From positions 434,001-498,000 of the forward strand of contig NZ_FUZV01000002.1 in assembly GCF_900167565.1 (NCBI RefSeq): a stretch of 64,000 bases of DNA, written 5' to 3'. This document shows positions 12,323 through 48,513 of this stretch, piece after piece. The notes beneath the pieces are model-generated. The model was not told the DNA's origin. It searched no databases and was given only the letters and a program-made list of their open reading frames with translations. The position numbers were made by a program, and so were the translations under genes. Position 1 is the first letter of the stretch, and the number at the start of each line of letters is the position of its first letter. The DNA is from Pseudoxanthomonas indica (lineage in GTDB: Bacteria > Pseudomonadota > Gammaproteobacteria > Xanthomonadales > Xanthomonadaceae).

Positions 12323-14536
12323 GTGTTGTCCGCTCCACGCACCGACGTGATCACCCTGCTGCAACGGCCGTCGCTGGCCACGCTGCCGGCGGATCTGCGT
12401 GCGCTGGTACAGACGCGTATCGATGCGAGTGGCGAGGTACCGCTGCGCGATGCGCTGCCGGTGGTGGCCGATACGCTGGACACGCTGGCGGCGTTGTCCG
12501 CCGATGGCGAAGTCCTGGCGGCAGCCCTGCTGTTCGCCTTGCCTGGCAGTGAAGGCGAACAGCCGAAGCCCGAACCCGGCAAGCCGGATACAGCGAAGCA
12601 GGAAGCAGCCAAGTCGGCTGCGGCCAAATGGCCGCCGGCGCTGGTGGACCTGATCGAAGGCCAGCAAGCCGCGTCACAGGTCTGGGTGCTGCACGCCGAG
12701 CAGCAGCGCGGCGGCAGCAACGAAGGCCTGCGCCGCCTGCTGCTGGCGATCGTGCGCGATCTGCGCGTGGTGCCGATCCTGCTCGCACGGCAACTGGCGC
12801 GCATGCGCCACGCCGGCGCGCTGGAAGAGACCGAACGGCGCGCACTGGCGCGCCTGACCCGCGACATCCACGCGCCGCTGGCCAACCGGCTCGGCATCTG
12901 GCAGCTCAAGTGGGAGCTGGAAGACCTCGCCTTCCGCTACCTGGAGCCGGACACCTACAAGCAGATCGCATCGCAGCTGGATGAAAAGCGCGTCGGTCGC
13001 GAGCGCTATATCGAAGCGGTCAAGACCACACTGCGCGAAGGCCTGGCCGAACACGGCATCAGCGCCGAGATCAGCGGTCGCCCCAAGCACATCTACAGCA
13101 TCTGGCGGAAGATGCAGCGCAAGCAGGTCTCGTTCGACGAGTTGTACGACCTGCGCGCCGTCCGGGTCACCGTCGATGACGTGGCCGCCTGCTATGCCGC
13201 GCTCGGCATCGTGCATGCCCTGTGGCAACCGGTGCCGAGCGAATTCGACGACTACATCGCCCGCCCCAAGTCCAACGACTACCGCTCCCTGCATACCGCG
13301 GTGATCGGACCCGAAGGGCGCACGCTGGAAGTGCAGATCCGCACCCACGAAATGCATGCGCAGGCCGAACTGGGCGTGGCCGCGCACTGGCGCTACAAGG
13401 AAGGCGGCGGCGACAAGGCCTTCGATCGCAAGATCGCCTGGATGCGCCGTCTGCTCGATCACACCCAGGAAGGCGGCGACGGCGATGGCCTGGCCAGCGA
13501 ACTGGATGCCGAGTTGGTCGAGGATCGCGTGTACGCGCTCACACCCAAGGGGGAAGTGATTGATCTGGTGCAGGGCGGCACGGTGCTGGACTTCGCCTAC
13601 CACGTACACACCATGGTCGGACACCGCACGCGCGGGGCCAAGGTCAATGGCCGCATCGTGCCCCTCAACCACGCGCTGCACAGTGGCGACCGCGTGGAAA
13701 TCCTGACTTCCAAGACCGGCGAGCCGCGCCGCGACTGGCTCTTGCCGGCCAATGGTTTCCTCGCCAGCGGGCGCTCGCGCGACAAGGTGCGCGCCTGGTT
13801 CCACAAGCTCGATCGCGCGCGCAACCTGCAGGCCGGCCGCGAGTTGCTGGAAAAGGAACTCAAGCGCCTCGGCCTGCACCATGCCGACCTGGCGCCGATG
13901 GCGAAGAAATTCCACGCCGAAAGCGTGGATGATCTCTACATCCAGGTGGCGCTGGGCGACGTGGGCCCCAACCAGATCGTGCGCGCGCTGCACGACGAAC
14001 AGCGCGCCGCCGCGGCCCCGGCGGCACCGCCGTCGCTGCTGCCGCCCGGGCGCAAGCCGGGTGGCCGCAAGCCGGCCGCACCAGGCAAGTCCAAGTTCAC
14101 GGTCGAGGGCGTGGGCAATCTGCTGGTACAGCTGGCGCGTTGCTGCCAGCCGGTGCCTGGCGAGCCCATCAGTGGCTATCTGACCCGCGGTCGTGGCGTG
14201 ACCGTGCATCGGCGCGACTGCGCCGCCTTCCTGCGGCTGGCCGCGACCAACCCGGCGCGTGTGTTGCCGGTGGAGTGGGGCGTGGCCGGTGGCGGTGGTT
14301 ATGAAGTGGACGTGGTGGTGCGGGCCTTCGACCGCAAATGGCTGTTGAAGGACATCACCACCCTGATCGCCCAGGAAGACGCCAACGTGCTGGACATCAA
14401 CAGCGACAACGCCCGCGGCAGTGGCCGGGTCCAGCTGCGCCTGCGCCTGAAGGTGGCCGACTTCGGCCAACTGTCGACCCTGCTTGGCAAACTGGACGCC
14501 ATCCCCGGGGTCGAGGACGCGCGACGTTCAGCCTGA
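12323..14536 (+). CDS. relA: GTP pyrophosphokinase RelA, (p)ppGpp synthetase I
   Basis: 737 residues from a GTG start, matching RelA length. RelA senses uncharged tRNA on the ribosome and makes (p)ppGpp. The N-terminal hydrolase domain has lost its His-Asp pair: where SpoT-type proteins read LLHDVVED this has AALLFALPGSE and a charged low-complexity insert, so it should only synthesise. The synthetase domain carries the EFDD signature (307-310) and RPKSNDYRSLH. A TGS domain lies near 400-462. The zinc-finger/CC domain has Cys607-Cys608 (ARCCQPVPG) and Cys633 (HRRDC), and an ACT/RRM domain ends the protein. A separate bifunctional SpoT is expected elsewhere in the genome. Confidence 0.95.
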   Translation: MLSAPRTDVITLLQRPSLATLPADLRALVQTRIDASGEVPLRDALPVVADTLDTLAALSADGEVLAAALLFALPGSEGEQPKPEPGKPDTAKQEAAKSAAAKWPPALVDLIEGQQAASQVWVLHAEQQRGGSNEGLRRLLLAIVRDLRVVPILLARQLARMRHAGALEETERRALARLTRDIHAPLANRLGIWQLKWELEDLAFRYLEPDTYKQIASQLDEKRVGRERYIEAVKTTLREGLAEHGISAEISGRPKHIYSIWRKMQRKQVSFDELYDLRAVRVTVDDVAACYAALGIVHALWQPVPSEFDDYIARPKSNDYRSLHTAVIGPEGRTLEVQIRTHEMHAQAELGVAAHWRYKEGGGDKAFDRKIAWMRRLLDHTQEGGDGDGLASELDAELVEDRVYALTPKGEVIDLVQGGTVLDFAYHVHTMVGHRTRGAKVNGRIVPLNHALHSGDRVEILTSKTGEPRRDWLLPANGFLASGRSRDKVRAWFHKLDRARNLQAGRELLEKELKRLGLHHADLAPMAKKFHAESVDDLYIQVALGDVGPNQIVRALHDEQRAAAAPAAPPSLLPPGRKPGGRKPAAPGKSKFTVEGVGNLLVQLARCCQPVPGEPISGYLTRGRGVTVHRRDCAAFLRLAATNPARVLPVEWGVAGGGGYEVDVVVRAFDRKWLLKDITTLIAQEDANVLDINSDNARGSGRVQLRLRLKVADFGQLSTLLGKLDAIPGVEDARRSA

Positions 14537-14555
14537 GTGGGTATGCTGGCGCCGA

Positions 14556-16157
14556 ATGTCAATCAACGAACAAACGCCGCCGCGCGATCGCATCGAACCC
14601 AGCACCGACTGGGACAAGGTGCGTTTTCGCGACGATCCCAGGAACAACGACGACGACTACGGCTACGACGAGTCGCGTTACCCGCCGCCGGCCTGGCGTT
14701 CGCGCCGGGTCTGGCGCTGGGGGCTGCTGATCCTGATCCTGTTGGCGGCGGTGCTGGTGGTGTTCCGCCAGCCGCTGGCAGCGGTGTTCTGGCCTGACAC
14801 GCGCATTCAACAGTTGCTGGATCAAGGCGATGCCGCCTTGCGCATTGGCCAGTTGAGCGCCAGCGGCGGACGCGGTGCGCGCCAGTATTACGAAGCCGCG
14901 CTGGCACTGGACGGCGATCGCAGCGAAGCGCGCGCCGGCCTGGCCAAGGTGGCCGAGGCCGCCCTGGTACAGGCGCGCCAATACACCGAACGCAAGCAAT
15001 ACGATCGTGCGCATGCCGCGCTGGCACTGGCCAACGAACTGCAGGTGCCGCGCGCCAACGCCACCCAGGTGGCCGACACCTTGCGCCAGCACGAAGCCGG
15101 TGGCTCGGACATCGAACCGCTGTTGAAGCAGGCGCTGGCCGCGCAGGCCGCGGGTCGCCTCGACGGCGCCCCGGATACCGCGCTGCCGTTGTTCCAGCGC
15201 GTCCTCAGCTTGCAGCCCGGACGCATCGAAGCCTTGGAAGGCCGCGAGGATGCGCTGTCGGACCTGCTGAAGGAAGCGCAGGCGCTGCTGGCCCAGGGCA
15301 AGGTGGCCGAGGCGGGCGCGGTGATCGCGCGTGTGCGCGGCTATGACCCCGGCCATGTCGATCTGCCGGCGGCGCAGGCGGCACTGGCACGCGCAGGCGA
15401 CAACGGCGTGAGCCGCGCCGATCAGGATCTGCGCGCACGACGCCTGGAAGCCGCACGCAAGGGCTACGAAGACGTGCTCTCCACCTCGCCCGACGAAGCG
15501 CGGGCGCGCCAGGGCCTGGATCGGGTCGCCGCCGCCTATGCCGAGCAGGCACGCAAGCAGGCCGGCGACTTCCACTTCACCGAGGCCGAAGCGGCGTTGG
15601 CGCAGGCGCGCGAGATTGCCCCGCAGTCCGCCGCGGTCAACGAAGCCGAGCAGGCCTTGGTGCGCGCCCGCGCCGCCGAGGCCCGCCTGGATGCACGGAC
15701 CTCGCCGCGACAGCGTGGTCAGCAGTTGGCCGACCTGCTCGACGGCATCGCCAAGGCCGAAGCGCGCAACGACTGGATCACCCCGCCGGGCGAAAGCGTC
15801 TACGACCAGCTGCGCGCAGCGCAGGCGCTGGCGCCGGACGATGCACGGGTGAAGAGCGTCGCCGCGCGGCTGCTGCCGGCGGTCACGCGCTGCTACGAGG
15901 ACGAACTGCGCGGCAATCGCCTGCGTCGCGCGCAGGCCTGCCTGTCGGCGTGGCAAACCCTGAGTCCGGGCGCCTCGGCGCTGCCCGAAGCGCGCCGGCA
16001 GATGGCGCAGAAGTGGATTGCCGTGGGCGGTGAACGTTTGGGCGCAGGCGACGTGGCGTTTGCCACGCAGGCCTTGAATGAAGCGCGTGCCTTGGCGCCG
16101 CAAGCGCCGGGTCTGCATGAGTTTGCCGAGCGCGTGCGGATGGCGCGCGTACCCTGA
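14556..16157 (+). CDS. Single-pass membrane protein with TPR-like repeats
   Basis: 533 residues. A charged, disordered cytoplasmic N-terminus of about 50 residues is followed by one membrane helix (WRWGLLILILLAAVLVVF, about 53-72). Then comes a long, Ala/Gln/Glu-rich helical region with degenerate TPR-like units of about 34 residues (YYEAALALDGDRSEARAGL; ALPLFQRVLSLQPGRIEAL). Such a layout suggests a scaffold facing the periplasm. It begins 19 bp after relA and is likely cotranscribed. I do not recognise a named family, and the partner is unknown. Two late cysteines (TRCYEDEL, AQACLSA) might form a disulfide. Confidence 0.7.
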   Translation: MSINEQTPPRDRIEPSTDWDKVRFRDDPRNNDDDYGYDESRYPPPAWRSRRVWRWGLLILILLAAVLVVFRQPLAAVFWPDTRIQQLLDQGDAALRIGQLSASGGRGARQYYEAALALDGDRSEARAGLAKVAEAALVQARQYTERKQYDRAHAALALANELQVPRANATQVADTLRQHEAGGSDIEPLLKQALAAQAAGRLDGAPDTALPLFQRVLSLQPGRIEALEGREDALSDLLKEAQALLAQGKVAEAGAVIARVRGYDPGHVDLPAAQAALARAGDNGVSRADQDLRARRLEAARKGYEDVLSTSPDEARARQGLDRVAAAYAEQARKQAGDFHFTEAEAALAQAREIAPQSAAVNEAEQALVRARAAEARLDARTSPRQRGQQLADLLDGIAKAEARNDWITPPGESVYDQLRAAQALAPDDARVKSVAARLLPAVTRCYEDELRGNRLRRAQACLSAWQTLSPGASALPEARRQMAQKWIAVGGERLGAGDVAFATQALNEARALAPQAPGLHEFAERVRMARVP

Positions 16158-16163
16158 TCGGGC

Positions 16164-16210
16164 ACACCCCCATTCGCGCTGCGCGCGAATCGCCCCCTGA
16201 CTCAGGGGGC
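16164..16210. repeat. Solitary copy of the two-hairpin REP-like element
   Basis: Two adjacent hairpins lie between convergent genes: ATTCGCGC-TGC-GCGCGAAT and CCCCCTGA-C-TCAGGGGG. The same pair, with the same spacing and flanking CACCCCC, occurs three times inside the 119-bp array at 48060-48411. The first stem differs from those copies by compensatory changes while the TGC loop is kept. It can serve as a bidirectional terminator-like structure here, although no T-run follows. Confidence 0.75.
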
Positions 16211-18315
16211 TAAGGCGCCTGGGTCAATCCGAATACGGTACGGACGGTCTCTCGGGCGGCATCGAGAGAGAAGTGTCGGGCGACGTTGTCGCGGCCGGCT
16301 GCGGACAGTCGGGTCCAGAGTGCTTCATCGCGATAGAGCGTGACGATCGCGTCGGCGAAGGCGTCGGCTGTGTCGACCACCAGTACGTCACGCCCATCCT
16401 GCAGACTCATGCCTTCCACCGCGCACGTCGTCGCGACGATGGGTTGGCCGTGGGCCATGCTCAGGTTGATCTTGCCCTTCACGCCGGCGCCGAAGCGCAG
16501 TGGCGCCAGCGCCACGCGCACCTGATCCATGTAGGGATCCAGATCGGCGACGTGGCCGTGCACGCGCACGCCGTGGCTACCGTCGAACGCGCGGATGTCG
16601 GCGGGTGGCTGGTCGCCGATGCAGTGGAAGCTCACGTCCGGCAGCTGTGCGTGCACCCGCGGATGGATGGCCTGCAGATACCAGCGCATGGCATCCAGAT
16701 TGGGGGCGTGCTGGAATCCGCCGACAAACACCAGATCGCGGCGCGACGCGTAATCACCGCCGGCTGCGGTCAGCCGATGCAGGTTGCTCACCACTTCGAC
16801 GCGGGCATCCGGGACATCGGTGGCCAGCAGGCTCCGCTCCACCGCACTGACCACCAGGGTGATGTCGCTGGCGCGCATCAGTCGTAGTTCGTCGGCGCGG
16901 GTGCGTTCGGCGGCGCGCAGCAGGGCGGCATCACCGGCCGTCTCGGCGGCGCGGCGTTCGCGCAGGTAGTGCAGATCCACGGTGTCGAACACCACCCGCG
17001 CCCGGGTGGACTTGCGCAGCAGGGGCAGGAACTCGTTGGCCACGTGGTGGCGCGAGACCATGACCGTGTCGAAGCGCGCGCCGTGCTCGCGCAGCCAGGC
17101 CGGTGCATTGCCGGCAAACGGCGCATACCAGCACTCCACACCCAGATCCTGCAGGGCCTGGGTATCGGCGCCCGCGTAGGCCAGGTCGGCCGGCAAAAAG
17201 ACGACGTGCGCGCCTTCCTCGATCAACAGCCGCATCAGATTGAGCAGACGCAGCGAACCGGAATCGCGATTGGCGCGTGGCGTGCTTTCTTCGATGATCA
17301 GAATCTGCGGACGATCCCGCGCCAACAATCCCGGCGAGGGCAATGATCGCGCCGGCAGTTGTCGCTGCAGGGCATCGGCCCACTTGGCGGCAAACACACC
17401 CTGGTTGCGCGCCTGGTAGGCCTTGACGCCGCTGGAGGGGTCGGTGCCGGCGGTGACGCCTTCGCGATGGACCACGCGCGAGCGCGGTTGGTAGAGCACC
17501 TCGCGCCCGGCCGCGCGCACCGCGAAGGCCAGGTCGGTGTCTTCGTAATACGCAGGCGCGTAGCGCGTGTCGAATCCGCCCAGTTCGCGGAACAGCGGCG
17601 TGGGCACGGCCAGTGCCGCGCCCGAGCAGTAGTCGGCTGCGCGCAGGCTGGCGTAGCGTGGATCATCGGGCGAATCGAAGCGGCCATAGTTCCAGGCCGC
17701 GCCATCGGCCATCACCACGCCGCCGGCTTCCTGCAGGCGACCGTCCGGGTAGATCAGCTGCGCCCCCACCAGTCCCGCGCGCGGGTGGGCTTCGAAGGTG
17801 GCCAGCAGCGCATCCAGCCAGCCTGGCTGCGGCACGGTGTCGTTGTTCAACAGCACTAGGTAATCGCCACGCGCGAGCGCCGCGCCGTCGTTGCAGGCGG
17901 CGATGAAGCCGCCATTGGCCGCGCGCCGGTGATAGCGCAGGCCGTCGATGGCGCGCATCCACGCTTCGGTCTCGTCGCTGGAGCCGTCGTCGACCACGAT
18001 CACTTCCATGCTTGCCTGCGGCGGATGCGCGGCCAGCGCGCGCAGGCAGTCCAGCGTGTCGGTGGCGTGGTTGTAGACCGGGATGACGATGCTCGCGCGC
18101 GGCGCATCGGCGCGCGGCAGTTCGAAAGGCGCAAACGGCGCCGGCGCCGGTGCGTACAGGAGCGGGGCGGGCAGGGGCAGGGCGGGTGACCAGTGCCGGC
18201 GCAGGCGCGACCAGGTGGCCTGCCAGCCGCGCGTTCGCACGCTGTTCATTCCCCGCCGGAACAGGCCGCTCAGGCGCGCGAACAGAAAGCGCACATGGGC
18301 CAAGGGCATCGACAT
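16210..18315 (-). CDS. Two-domain glycosyltransferase (GT2 plus GT4-like)
   Basis: 701 residues. Residues about 73-300 form a GT-A, family 2 domain (SIVIPVYNHATDTLDCL, VVDDGSSD at 107-114, LLNNDT with NND at 157-159, and the acceptor-side EDTDLAFAVRAAG). Residues about 340-700 form a GT-B, family 4-like domain with VFVGGFQHAPNLDAM, then PLRFGAGVKGKINLSMAHGQPIVATTCAVEGM, the usual nucleotide-sugar-binding end. The protein could add two sugars in turn to a surface polysaccharide or glycoprotein. No membrane helices are seen, but the basic N-terminus could touch the membrane. It stands alone, divergent from mrcB and outside any polysaccharide cluster visible here. Sugar and acceptor unknown. Confidence 0.85.
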   Translation of the reverse strand: MSMPLAHVRFLFARLSGLFRRGMNSVRTRGWQATWSRLRRHWSPALPLPAPLLYAPAPAPFAPFELPRADAPRASIVIPVYNHATDTLDCLRALAAHPPQASMEVIVVDDGSSDETEAWMRAIDGLRYHRRAANGGFIAACNDGAALARGDYLVLLNNDTVPQPGWLDALLATFEAHPRAGLVGAQLIYPDGRLQEAGGVVMADGAAWNYGRFDSPDDPRYASLRAADYCSGAALAVPTPLFRELGGFDTRYAPAYYEDTDLAFAVRAAGREVLYQPRSRVVHREGVTAGTDPSSGVKAYQARNQGVFAAKWADALQRQLPARSLPSPGLLARDRPQILIIEESTPRANRDSGSLRLLNLMRLLIEEGAHVVFLPADLAYAGADTQALQDLGVECWYAPFAGNAPAWLREHGARFDTVMVSRHHVANEFLPLLRKSTRARVVFDTVDLHYLRERRAAETAGDAALLRAAERTRADELRLMRASDITLVVSAVERSLLATDVPDARVEVVSNLHRLTAAGGDYASRRDLVFVGGFQHAPNLDAMRWYLQAIHPRVHAQLPDVSFHCIGDQPPADIRAFDGSHGVRVHGHVADLDPYMDQVRVALAPLRFGAGVKGKINLSMAHGQPIVATTCAVEGMSLQDGRDVLVVDTADAFADAIVTLYRDEALWTRLSAAGRDNVARHFSLDAARETVRTVFGLTQAP

Positions 18316-46790: not shown

Positions 46791-48059
46791 ATGCCGCAGG
46801 GGTTGCCGCGCAAGCTTCGTATCGCCTTCATCCTGCAGGCCGTGATGGTGAGCCTGGCGATCGTGCTGGGTGTGTATCTGATCTCGGCGGTCATCAAGCA
46901 CAGCCTGATGAACACCGCGCTGCAGGAAGAGGCCACCCACTTCTGGGAGCTGTACGACGCCTCGACCGCGCAGCCGCCGCCCAACACGCACAACCTGCGT
47001 GGCTACCTGGTGGTGAAGGGGCACTCCAACCTGGTGCTGCCGGACAACCTACGCGCGCTCAAGCCCGGCTTCCACGAGCTCAAGGACGACGACATGCTGG
47101 TGCTGGTGGACGAGCAGCCGGCCGGTCGCCTGTACCTGGTGTTCCTGCGTTCGCAGGCCGAGCGGCTGGCGTTCTATTTCGGCACGCTGCCGATCATCCT
47201 GACCCTGATCGCGATCTACGCGGTGTCCTGGCTGACCTACCGGGCGTCCAAGCGCCTGGTCTCGCCGGTGAGCTGGCTGGCGCGGCAAGTGGCCATGTGG
47301 GATCCGCGCAGGCCGGATGTCAGTGCGCTGGCACCGGAGAAACTGCCGGCCGAAGTGCAGGGCGAAGCGCGCCAGCTGGCGCAGGCCCTGCACGGCCTGT
47401 CCGAGCGCGTGGCCGCGCATGTGGCGCGCGAGCGCGACTTCACCCGCGACGCCAGCCATGAACTGCGTACCCCGCTGACGGTGATCCGCGTGGCCAGCGA
47501 CATGGCCATGGCCGAGGAGGCCTCGCCGCGCGTGGCGCGTTCGCTGCAACGCATCCAGCGCGCCGGCCGCGACATGGAGGCGGTGATTGATGCCTTCCTG
47601 ATCCTGGCGCGCGAGGCCGAAGTGGAGCCGCAGCGCGAGGACTTCGACGTGGCCGACGTGGTGCTGGACGAAGCCGAGAACGCGCGCACGTTGCTGATCG
47701 GCAAGCCGGTGGATCTGGAAGTGACCTGCAACGCCAAGCCGCGCCTGCATGCGCCGCCGCGCGTGTTCCAGGTGGTGATCAGCAACCTGCTGCGCAACGC
47801 CTGCAGCTATACCGACGAAGGCCGCATCGATGTGCTGGTGGAGGCGGATCGGATCTGCGTCAGCGATTCCGGCATCGGCATGTCGCAAGAGGCGATGCAG
47901 CGGGTGTTCGAACCCTTCTACCGGGTCGACCCCACCCGCCCGCGCGGCAGCGGCCTGGGCCTGTCGATCGTCAGCCGCCTGTGCGAACGCTTCGGCTGGA
48001 AAATCGAGCTGGAAAGCGAGTTGGGCAAGGGCACGACCGCCACGATCCGCTTCGCGTAG
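46791..48059 (+). CDS. Sensor histidine kinase
   Basis: 422 residues. Membrane helices at about 10-35 and 125-150 enclose a periplasmic sensor of roughly 90 residues (ALQEEATHFWELYDAS onward). A HAMP-like segment (YRASKRLVSPVSWLARQV) leads to the dimerisation domain with His223 in RDASHELRTPLTVIR. The ATPase domain has the N-box SNLLRNACSYTDEG, G1 VSDSGIGMS, the F-box EPFYRVD and G2 RGSGLGLSIVSRL. It should phosphorylate the OmpR-type regulator upstream. The input signal is unknown. The 119-bp array begins directly after its stop. Confidence 0.92.
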   Translation: MPQGLPRKLRIAFILQAVMVSLAIVLGVYLISAVIKHSLMNTALQEEATHFWELYDASTAQPPPNTHNLRGYLVVKGHSNLVLPDNLRALKPGFHELKDDDMLVLVDEQPAGRLYLVFLRSQAERLAFYFGTLPIILTLIAIYAVSWLTYRASKRLVSPVSWLARQVAMWDPRRPDVSALAPEKLPAEVQGEARQLAQALHGLSERVAAHVARERDFTRDASHELRTPLTVIRVASDMAMAEEASPRVARSLQRIQRAGRDMEAVIDAFLILAREAEVEPQREDFDVADVVLDEAENARTLLIGKPVDLEVTCNAKPRLHAPPRVFQVVISNLLRNACSYTDEGRIDVLVEADRICVSDSGIGMSQEAMQRVFEPFYRVDPTRPRGSGLGLSIVSRLCERFGWKIELESELGKGTTATIRFA

Positions 48060-48411
48060 TCCAGGCTGCGCCTGGACTACCCCAAAGTTTGCTTCTGCAA
48101 ACCTTGGGCCCCGCTATGTACTTCCACACCCCCATTCGCACCTGCGGTGCGAATCGCCCCCTGACTCAGGGGCGCGTTTCCATGCTGCGCATGGGATCCC
48201 CAAAGTTTGCTTCTGCAAACCTTGGGCCCTGCTATGTACTTCCACACCCCCATTCGCACCTGCGGTGCGAATCGCCCCCTGACTCAGGGGGCGCGTTTCC
48301 ATGCTGCGCATGGAATCCCCAAAGTTTGCTTCTGCAAACCTTGGGCCCCGCTATGTACTTCCAAACCCCCATTCGCACCCGCGGTGCGAATCGCCCCCTG
48401 ACTCAGGGGGC
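48060..48411 (+). repeat. Three-unit 119-bp tandem array with four hairpins per unit
   Basis: Units run 48060-48178, 48179-48297 and 48298-48411. Each unit holds, in order: (1) a hairpin with TGC loop, CCAGGC/GCCTGG in unit 1 and CCATGC/GCATGG in units 2-3; (2) CCAAAGTTTGC and GCAAACCTTGG around TTCT; (3) ATTCGCACC and GGTGCGAAT around TGC or CGC; (4) CCCCCTGACTCAGGGGG. The stem change in hairpin 1 is compensatory, and hairpins 3-4 recur at 16164-16210. The rest of the gap to 48513 shows no gene. Short frames here repeat with the DNA and are not coding. No spacers, so not CRISPR. Confidence 0.85.
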
Positions 48412-48513
48412 TGTTGGCCTGCTGAATGGTTGCATCGGGATTGCGGCTTGCTGTCAACGCGTTTGCGGGGCATGCGTTAATGCGGACGTATCCCCACTCG
48501 ACCATCGCCCTTC

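Follow-up and report, generated by a model that had tools for sequence, protein, structure and literature searches.

The locus considered here raises the question of what kind of sequence a tandem array of hairpins directly behind a sensor kinase gene is, and whether it belongs to its neighboring genes. The array occupies positions 48060–48411 of the window, the 64,000-nucleotide stretch of Pseudoxanthomonas indica DNA that was analyzed (genomes are coded G and loci L, each with three digits; G000 is the window's own Pseudoxanthomonas genome). TRF returned a period of 119, 3.0 copies, 95% matches and a score of 639, bearing out a preliminary description of three ~119-bp units with four hairpins each, with unit 1 shorter than the other units by one base. 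The units are spaced 118 and 119 apart, since H2 starts at 48080, 48198 and 48317. On the plus strand each unit reads H1 (variable), H2, a C-rich linker, H3 and H4, with H2 directly abutting H1 and a gap of ~1 base between H3 and H4; the element from H2 to H4 measures ~95 bp and the unit with four hairpins ~95–119 bp. Fold z scores were −6.1 for unit 2 and −14.3 for the entire array, and 0 shuffles were as good in either case.

In unit 1, H1 (48056–48080, + strand) consists of GTAGTCCAGGC / TGC / GCCTGGACTAC, its 11 pairs joining 48056–48066 to 48070–48080. The sensor histidine kinase gene (46791–48059, + strand) ends in the 5′ arm of this hairpin: the stop codon TAG (48057–48059) and the preceding G lie inside the stem, so that the array adjoins the stop, as stated earlier, but does not start one base after it. 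There follow H2 (48081–48108, + strand; CCCAAAGTTTGC / TTCT / GCAAACCTTGGG, with one A-C mispair), the unpaired C-rich linker (48109–48133, + strand), H3 (48134–48154, + strand; ATTCGCACC / TGC / GGTGCGAAT) and H4 (48156–48173, + strand), which in unit 1 lacks one G and in units 2 and 3 reads GCCCCCTGACTCAGGGGGC. Unit 2 extends over 48178–48294 (+ strand; H1 48178–48196, H2–H4 48198–48294) and unit 3 over 48297–48413 (+ strand; H1 48297–48315, H2–H4 48317–48413). A core 15-mer of the element occurred 3 times in the window, where 0.04 occurrences were expected. A second, partial copy, comprising the linker end, H3 and H4, lies at 16155–16212 (+ strand) directly after the stop of the ORF 14484–16157; its match to the model described below spans 16130–16212 and scores 46.7 bits. 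It sits between that ORF (+) and the convergent ORF 16210–18315 (−), whose stop codon comes from the last H4 bases of the copy.

Pfam domains agreed with the position previously given, between a sensor kinase and a MacAB-type exporter: upstream lie a response regulator and the HisKA/HATPase kinase, and downstream HlyD, ABC_tran and MacB_PCD/FtsX exporter genes, all on the + strand. The five neighboring genes scanned with Pfam contained no transposase, and the remark that none is nearby holds for those genes. The location of a tandem array between two operons would suit a protein-binding DNA array, a small RNA or a sponge serving the kinase-exporter pair. This is very improbable, since the unit of the array also occurs at unrelated genes, the element was absent from the stretches fetched around all 24 orthologous kinase genes examined in the genus, and searches of 20 loci with Rfam 15 at the gathering score found only RNase P, SRP and a tRNA, with no family covering the element. 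The window stretch gave only scores far below the cut-off at a loose Rfam threshold, and plasmid records contained no match to the array. The functional tie to the kinase-exporter pair was dropped on the 0/24 count, and the small RNA or sponge suggested earlier found no support. Because none of these 24 genes carries the element, the window array is one lineage-specific instance of a repeat found elsewhere.

BLAST with the array matched 17 places in its own genome and 28 of 61 genomes, its own included. RNAalifold missed H1 on the first alignment because the flanks do not align; H2–H4 were then modelled alone (model R1: 35 copies, 96 positions, 29 pairs) and H1 was handled by script. R1 gave 21 matches in G000, corresponding to 20 copies and one antisense overlap, and matched 34 of the 38 genomes of the genus and, with the best 10 candidates per genome scored, 287 of the 395 genomes examined across the family (36 of 54 genera). 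The comparison of copy number among genomes that had been proposed yielded 3 (G151), 40 (G124), 65 (G215) and at least 150 (G197) copies in four genomes of one genus. In an order-wide draw, 26 of 151 genomes had R1 matches; seven of these lay outside the family, one with a single strong copy (G443), one with five (G444) and the remaining five with weak matches only. The array thus belongs to a structured repeat family of the Lysobacteraceae (Xanthomonadaceae) that is dispersed, amplified and lineage-specific, and for these reasons an expanding REP-type element is the best fit among the earlier readings. The repeat occurs in 287 of the 395 sampled genomes of a much-sequenced family, yet matches no Rfam family, and no name or description of the four-hairpin unit was found in the literature searched, which lacked most subscription journals. 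A genome of another family of the same order (G046, family f11) gave 16 weak R1 matches of similar length, perhaps a related or a look-alike repeat.

Placement was examined at 83 loci taken from the best matches, a non-random set in which arrays were counted once, using a simple rule based on ORFs and rnpB. Copies lay directly after rnpB at 26 loci, after a sense gene end only at 26, after a sense end followed by a convergent end at 9, at a convergent end only at 12, in reverse orientation upstream of rnpB at 3 and in neither class at 7, one of which (L146) follows SRP RNA; the rule errs in places, the window array being classed as having a convergent end too even though array and exporter share a strand. 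Among loci chosen for a sense gene, the distance from stop codon to H2 was 15–29 nt in 31 of 34. Most copies thus lie at the 3′ ends of genes, immediately next to a stop codon or the T-tract of a terminator. For rnpB, 79 family genomes were surveyed, each with an rnpB match, and the 3′ flank was read in 70; an R1 match on the rnpB strand lay within 130 nt of the rnpB 3′ end in 23 of the 70 flanks. By eye, a contig end truncates the rnpB copy at two further loci, L306 and L317, and L339 looks like a remnant. Where the element was missing after rnpB, genomes showed a simple terminator hairpin (L323, L331) or no obvious feature. In E. coli, tandem structured repeats also lie directly downstream of rnpB; they resemble the present family in structure and place, but the latter occurs at many other genes as well.

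Reverse copies upstream of rnpB were seen in 4 genomes of the rnpB survey. Such copies stand directly upstream at L103 (991–1086, G019), L098 (G021), L298, L302, L310 and L319, and several genomes also carry a forward copy downstream, which places rnpB between copies in inverted orientation. At L107 (638–1343, G035), the RNase P RNA match owes its length of 706 nt to several tandem repeats of ~67 nt, rich in hairpins, within the rnpB gene. The L077 copy (G000:C2:1526147-1526242) separates smpB from ssrA (tmRNA), genes named from sequence reading; the relatives G011 and G012 carry GTAG REPs at this site instead.

The element was considered as the rnpB terminator and dropped, P1 plus a U-tract being present after rnpB both with and without it. 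In the copies inspected, H4 is followed by CTN and by no T-run, and T-tracts precede the element. Group IIC introns also settle directly behind intrinsic terminators; unlike these, the repeat has no reverse transcriptase ORF and gave no Rfam group II intron match in the 20 loci. The main rival to a mobile element is RNA-level selection for a 3′-end cap, in which the abutting hairpins of the sense transcript would protect it by blocking 3′ exonucleases or read-through, perhaps with Rho acting on the C-rich linker, the H1 arms being matched by selection and the copies spread by ordinary recombination. Placement at gene ends, the copies in 23 of 70 rnpB flanks and after SRP RNA, the C-rich linker and the strong covariation at the rnpB site described below are all consistent with such a role. 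We consider it unlikely: P1 plus the U-tract is in place regardless of the element, at 12 of the 83 loci the only adjoining gene end is a convergent one, to which the copy is antisense, H1 is lost in internal copies of three arrays, and the pairing statistics point elsewhere.

In the 35 copies of the model, 93.5% of stem cells were paired, a double change was found at 17 of 29 pairs (10.3 in shuffles) and shifting partners by one column lowered pairing to 49–52%; the count of further pair types was not above that of shuffles (27 versus 26.0). Copies directly after rnpB were counted on 22 chosen sense rows (L330:305 being a second copy after rnpB, L302 excluded), redone in this way because an earlier alignment, A4, held spurious antisense rows. 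These gave a double change at 24 of 29 pairs and 521 of 561 cells Watson-Crick, figures that ignore relatedness among rows and come from an alignment fitted to R1 and so biased toward the model. The search of related genomes and the covariance model, both called for in the preliminary description, yielded homologues far beyond chance that covary, and on these grounds the H2–H4 fold is conserved. Among 2789 cells of H2–H4 in 102 distinct copies, 2621 were Watson-Crick, 26 G-T, 80 A-C and 62 other; as a rough yardstick, P RNA of three of these genomes, folded by energy, had 8–10 G-U in 104–110 pairs. The mispairs of H2 were 68 A-C and 7 G-T, with 46 of the A-C at one single pair, a pattern that would be expected if pairing took place on the minus strand. 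H3 (13 G-T, 7 A-C) and H4 (6 G-T, 5 A-C) had no such bias. With G-T in ~1% of cells, upkeep of the palindromes as DNA is therefore favored. Of the earlier claim of selection on folding, the conserved and covarying fold stood; selection on RNA alone was lowered in standing by the scarcity of G-T pairs.

H1 behaves differently from the other hairpins. It has at least 7 Watson-Crick pairs in 88 of 103 copies, with a mean stem of 10.5 among 80 of the distinct copies. Its 5′ arm consists, at most protein-gene loci, of the stop codon plus at most 3 coding bases; at L071, L079 and L081 of the T-tract behind a terminator hairpin; and after rnpB of the T-tract behind P1. In the reverse, upstream copies at L098, L103 and L125 it coincides with TAGAAT, which we take to be the rnpB −10 box. 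At L151, 14 nt of lpdA coding sequence make up the arm, and all 14 positions recur in the copy, with the stop codon in the loop; LpdA ends in IHK-x-N in 120 of the 120 homologues listed, so that this arm, dated by protein ends, is probably old coding DNA. The 10 nt before H2 matched their own flank at 8.14 positions and the flanks of other loci at 5.28 (93 flanks); for the outer 5 nt the values were 4.89 and 1.90 (64 of the 93 flanks, selected for a stem of at least 9). In sum, the 5′ arm of H1 is host sequence and the 3′ arm its inverted copy. The change of H1 from CCAGGC/GCCTGG to CCATGC/GCATGG noted earlier is present; read earlier as compensatory, it is better explained by each H1 being fitted to its own flank.

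In G011 and G012, five G000 sites (L068, L071, L072, L077 and L079) lack the element, R1 finding no match in the stretches fetched. The empty L071 and L079 sites contain the T-tract and lack the matching A-tract; at these two loci the terminator T-tract is, judged from the relatives, old. The stop codon at the window locus, L068 and L072 is unlike that of G011 and G012, the closest relatives, and the element may therefore have brought some of the 5′ arm with it. In the arrays at L099, L107 and L148, nine internal copies lack the 5′ arm of the first copy but still match the final 10 nt of its 3′ arm at 8–10 positions, whereas other internal copies (window units 2–3, L106, L135–L137) have good H1 stems of their own. 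The element seems to form H1 from the sequence of the neighboring gene, which would be an unusual settling mode for a mobile element. With one H1 arm from the host and the other not, the birth and upkeep of palindromic repeats become readable from sequence.

On balance, and without great assurance, we lean toward a non-coding, non-autonomous, REP-like mobile repeat that settles at gene 3′ ends, its insertion or a later palindrome correction copying the flank into the 3′ arm. A nicked host 3′ end would snap back on itself, be extended by ~4–14 nt and then be joined to the element; replication template switching would later keep the palindromes perfect, and arrays such as that at 48060 would grow by (unequal) recombination between units. 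Because the gene stays intact when a copy sits precisely at its stop codon or past a terminator T-tract, copies there would be tolerated. Alternatively, selection or palindrome correction could have made the 3′ arm match once the element was inserted; no stages between an unmatched and a matched 3′ arm were observed. Against the mobile-element reading stands the covariation, from genus to genus, of old copies that occupy the same site behind rnpB and purH, a pattern expected of a functional RNA. A more specific proposal, tentative and in our view doubtful, is that insertion itself writes H1: the element would join a folded-back host 3′ end that has copied 4–14 nt of itself, giving each copy a private hairpin made from its target. 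In the copies upstream of rnpB a single mismatch spoils the mirrored −10 box, and if insertion writes H1 this mismatch would represent subsequent repair of a mirror promoter that was not wanted. We know of no small bacterial repeat with such insertion chemistry, which, if real, would be aimed at transcript ends.

GTAG/CGTC REPs carry their tetranucleotide at the foot of a 20–40 bp palindrome and are associated with a RAYT (Y1) transposase gene. As characterized in excerpts of PMC3733652 and PMC2613905, GTAG/CGTC REPs, BIMEs and SMAG repeats resemble the present repeat in being short, palindromic, non-coding, dispersed and tandem-prone, and in lying near or overlapping gene ends; the repeat is likewise extragenic, often at gene 3′ ends and present in many copies. 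It differs from the forms described in those excerpts in its length of ~95–119 bp, its four hairpins, a conserved H2–H4 part with neither tetranucleotide, a locus-specific H1 matched to the host flank, and the lack of any dedicated Y1 gene among those found. GTAG REPs often provide the TAG stop codon of an ORF, according to an excerpt of PMC3733652. The GTAG at 48056 consists of the last base before the kinase stop and the stop codon itself, and most other loci have no GTAG; by the tetranucleotide definition the repeat is therefore not a GTAG REP, although it travels with GTAG REPs in Lysobacter maris. MITEs, by the definition excerpted from PMC3733652, are similarly 70–300 bp long, non-coding and of lineage-variable copy number, with terminal inverted repeats of 15–30 bp. 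In the repeat, by contrast, the unit ends are non-complementary and form local hairpins only, H1 being local and H4 unrelated to it, and no target duplication was seen at the empty sites, which are too diverged for junction reading. Neither excision nor an enzyme was seen for the repeat.

The repeat might instead have no mobility of its own and be carried with GTAG REPs by TnpA-REP (RAYT), in cis or in trans. In Lysobacter maris (G197), among 85 copies with enough flank, 37 were internal, 27 of the 48 first copies followed a GTAG REP and 21 did not, and a REP lay within 110 nt of 42 of 46 last copies; contig C130 of this genome carries a Y1 transposase gene ~350 bp away from a copy. In G000, however, a REP lay within 150 bp upstream at only 1 of 17 loci and within 350 bp downstream at 7 of 17, the single Y1 gene adjoins no copy, and G215 (65 copies) and G137 (13 copies) gave no Y1 match, which makes carriage as a general explanation quite improbable. 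The L. maris copies themselves probably ride in GTAG-REP composites movable by a Y1 (RAYT-type) transposase. Many draft contigs of L. maris terminate in a copy of the repeat, and this, together with its marking of gene 3′ ends, that of rnpB most of all, makes it relevant to assembly and annotation.
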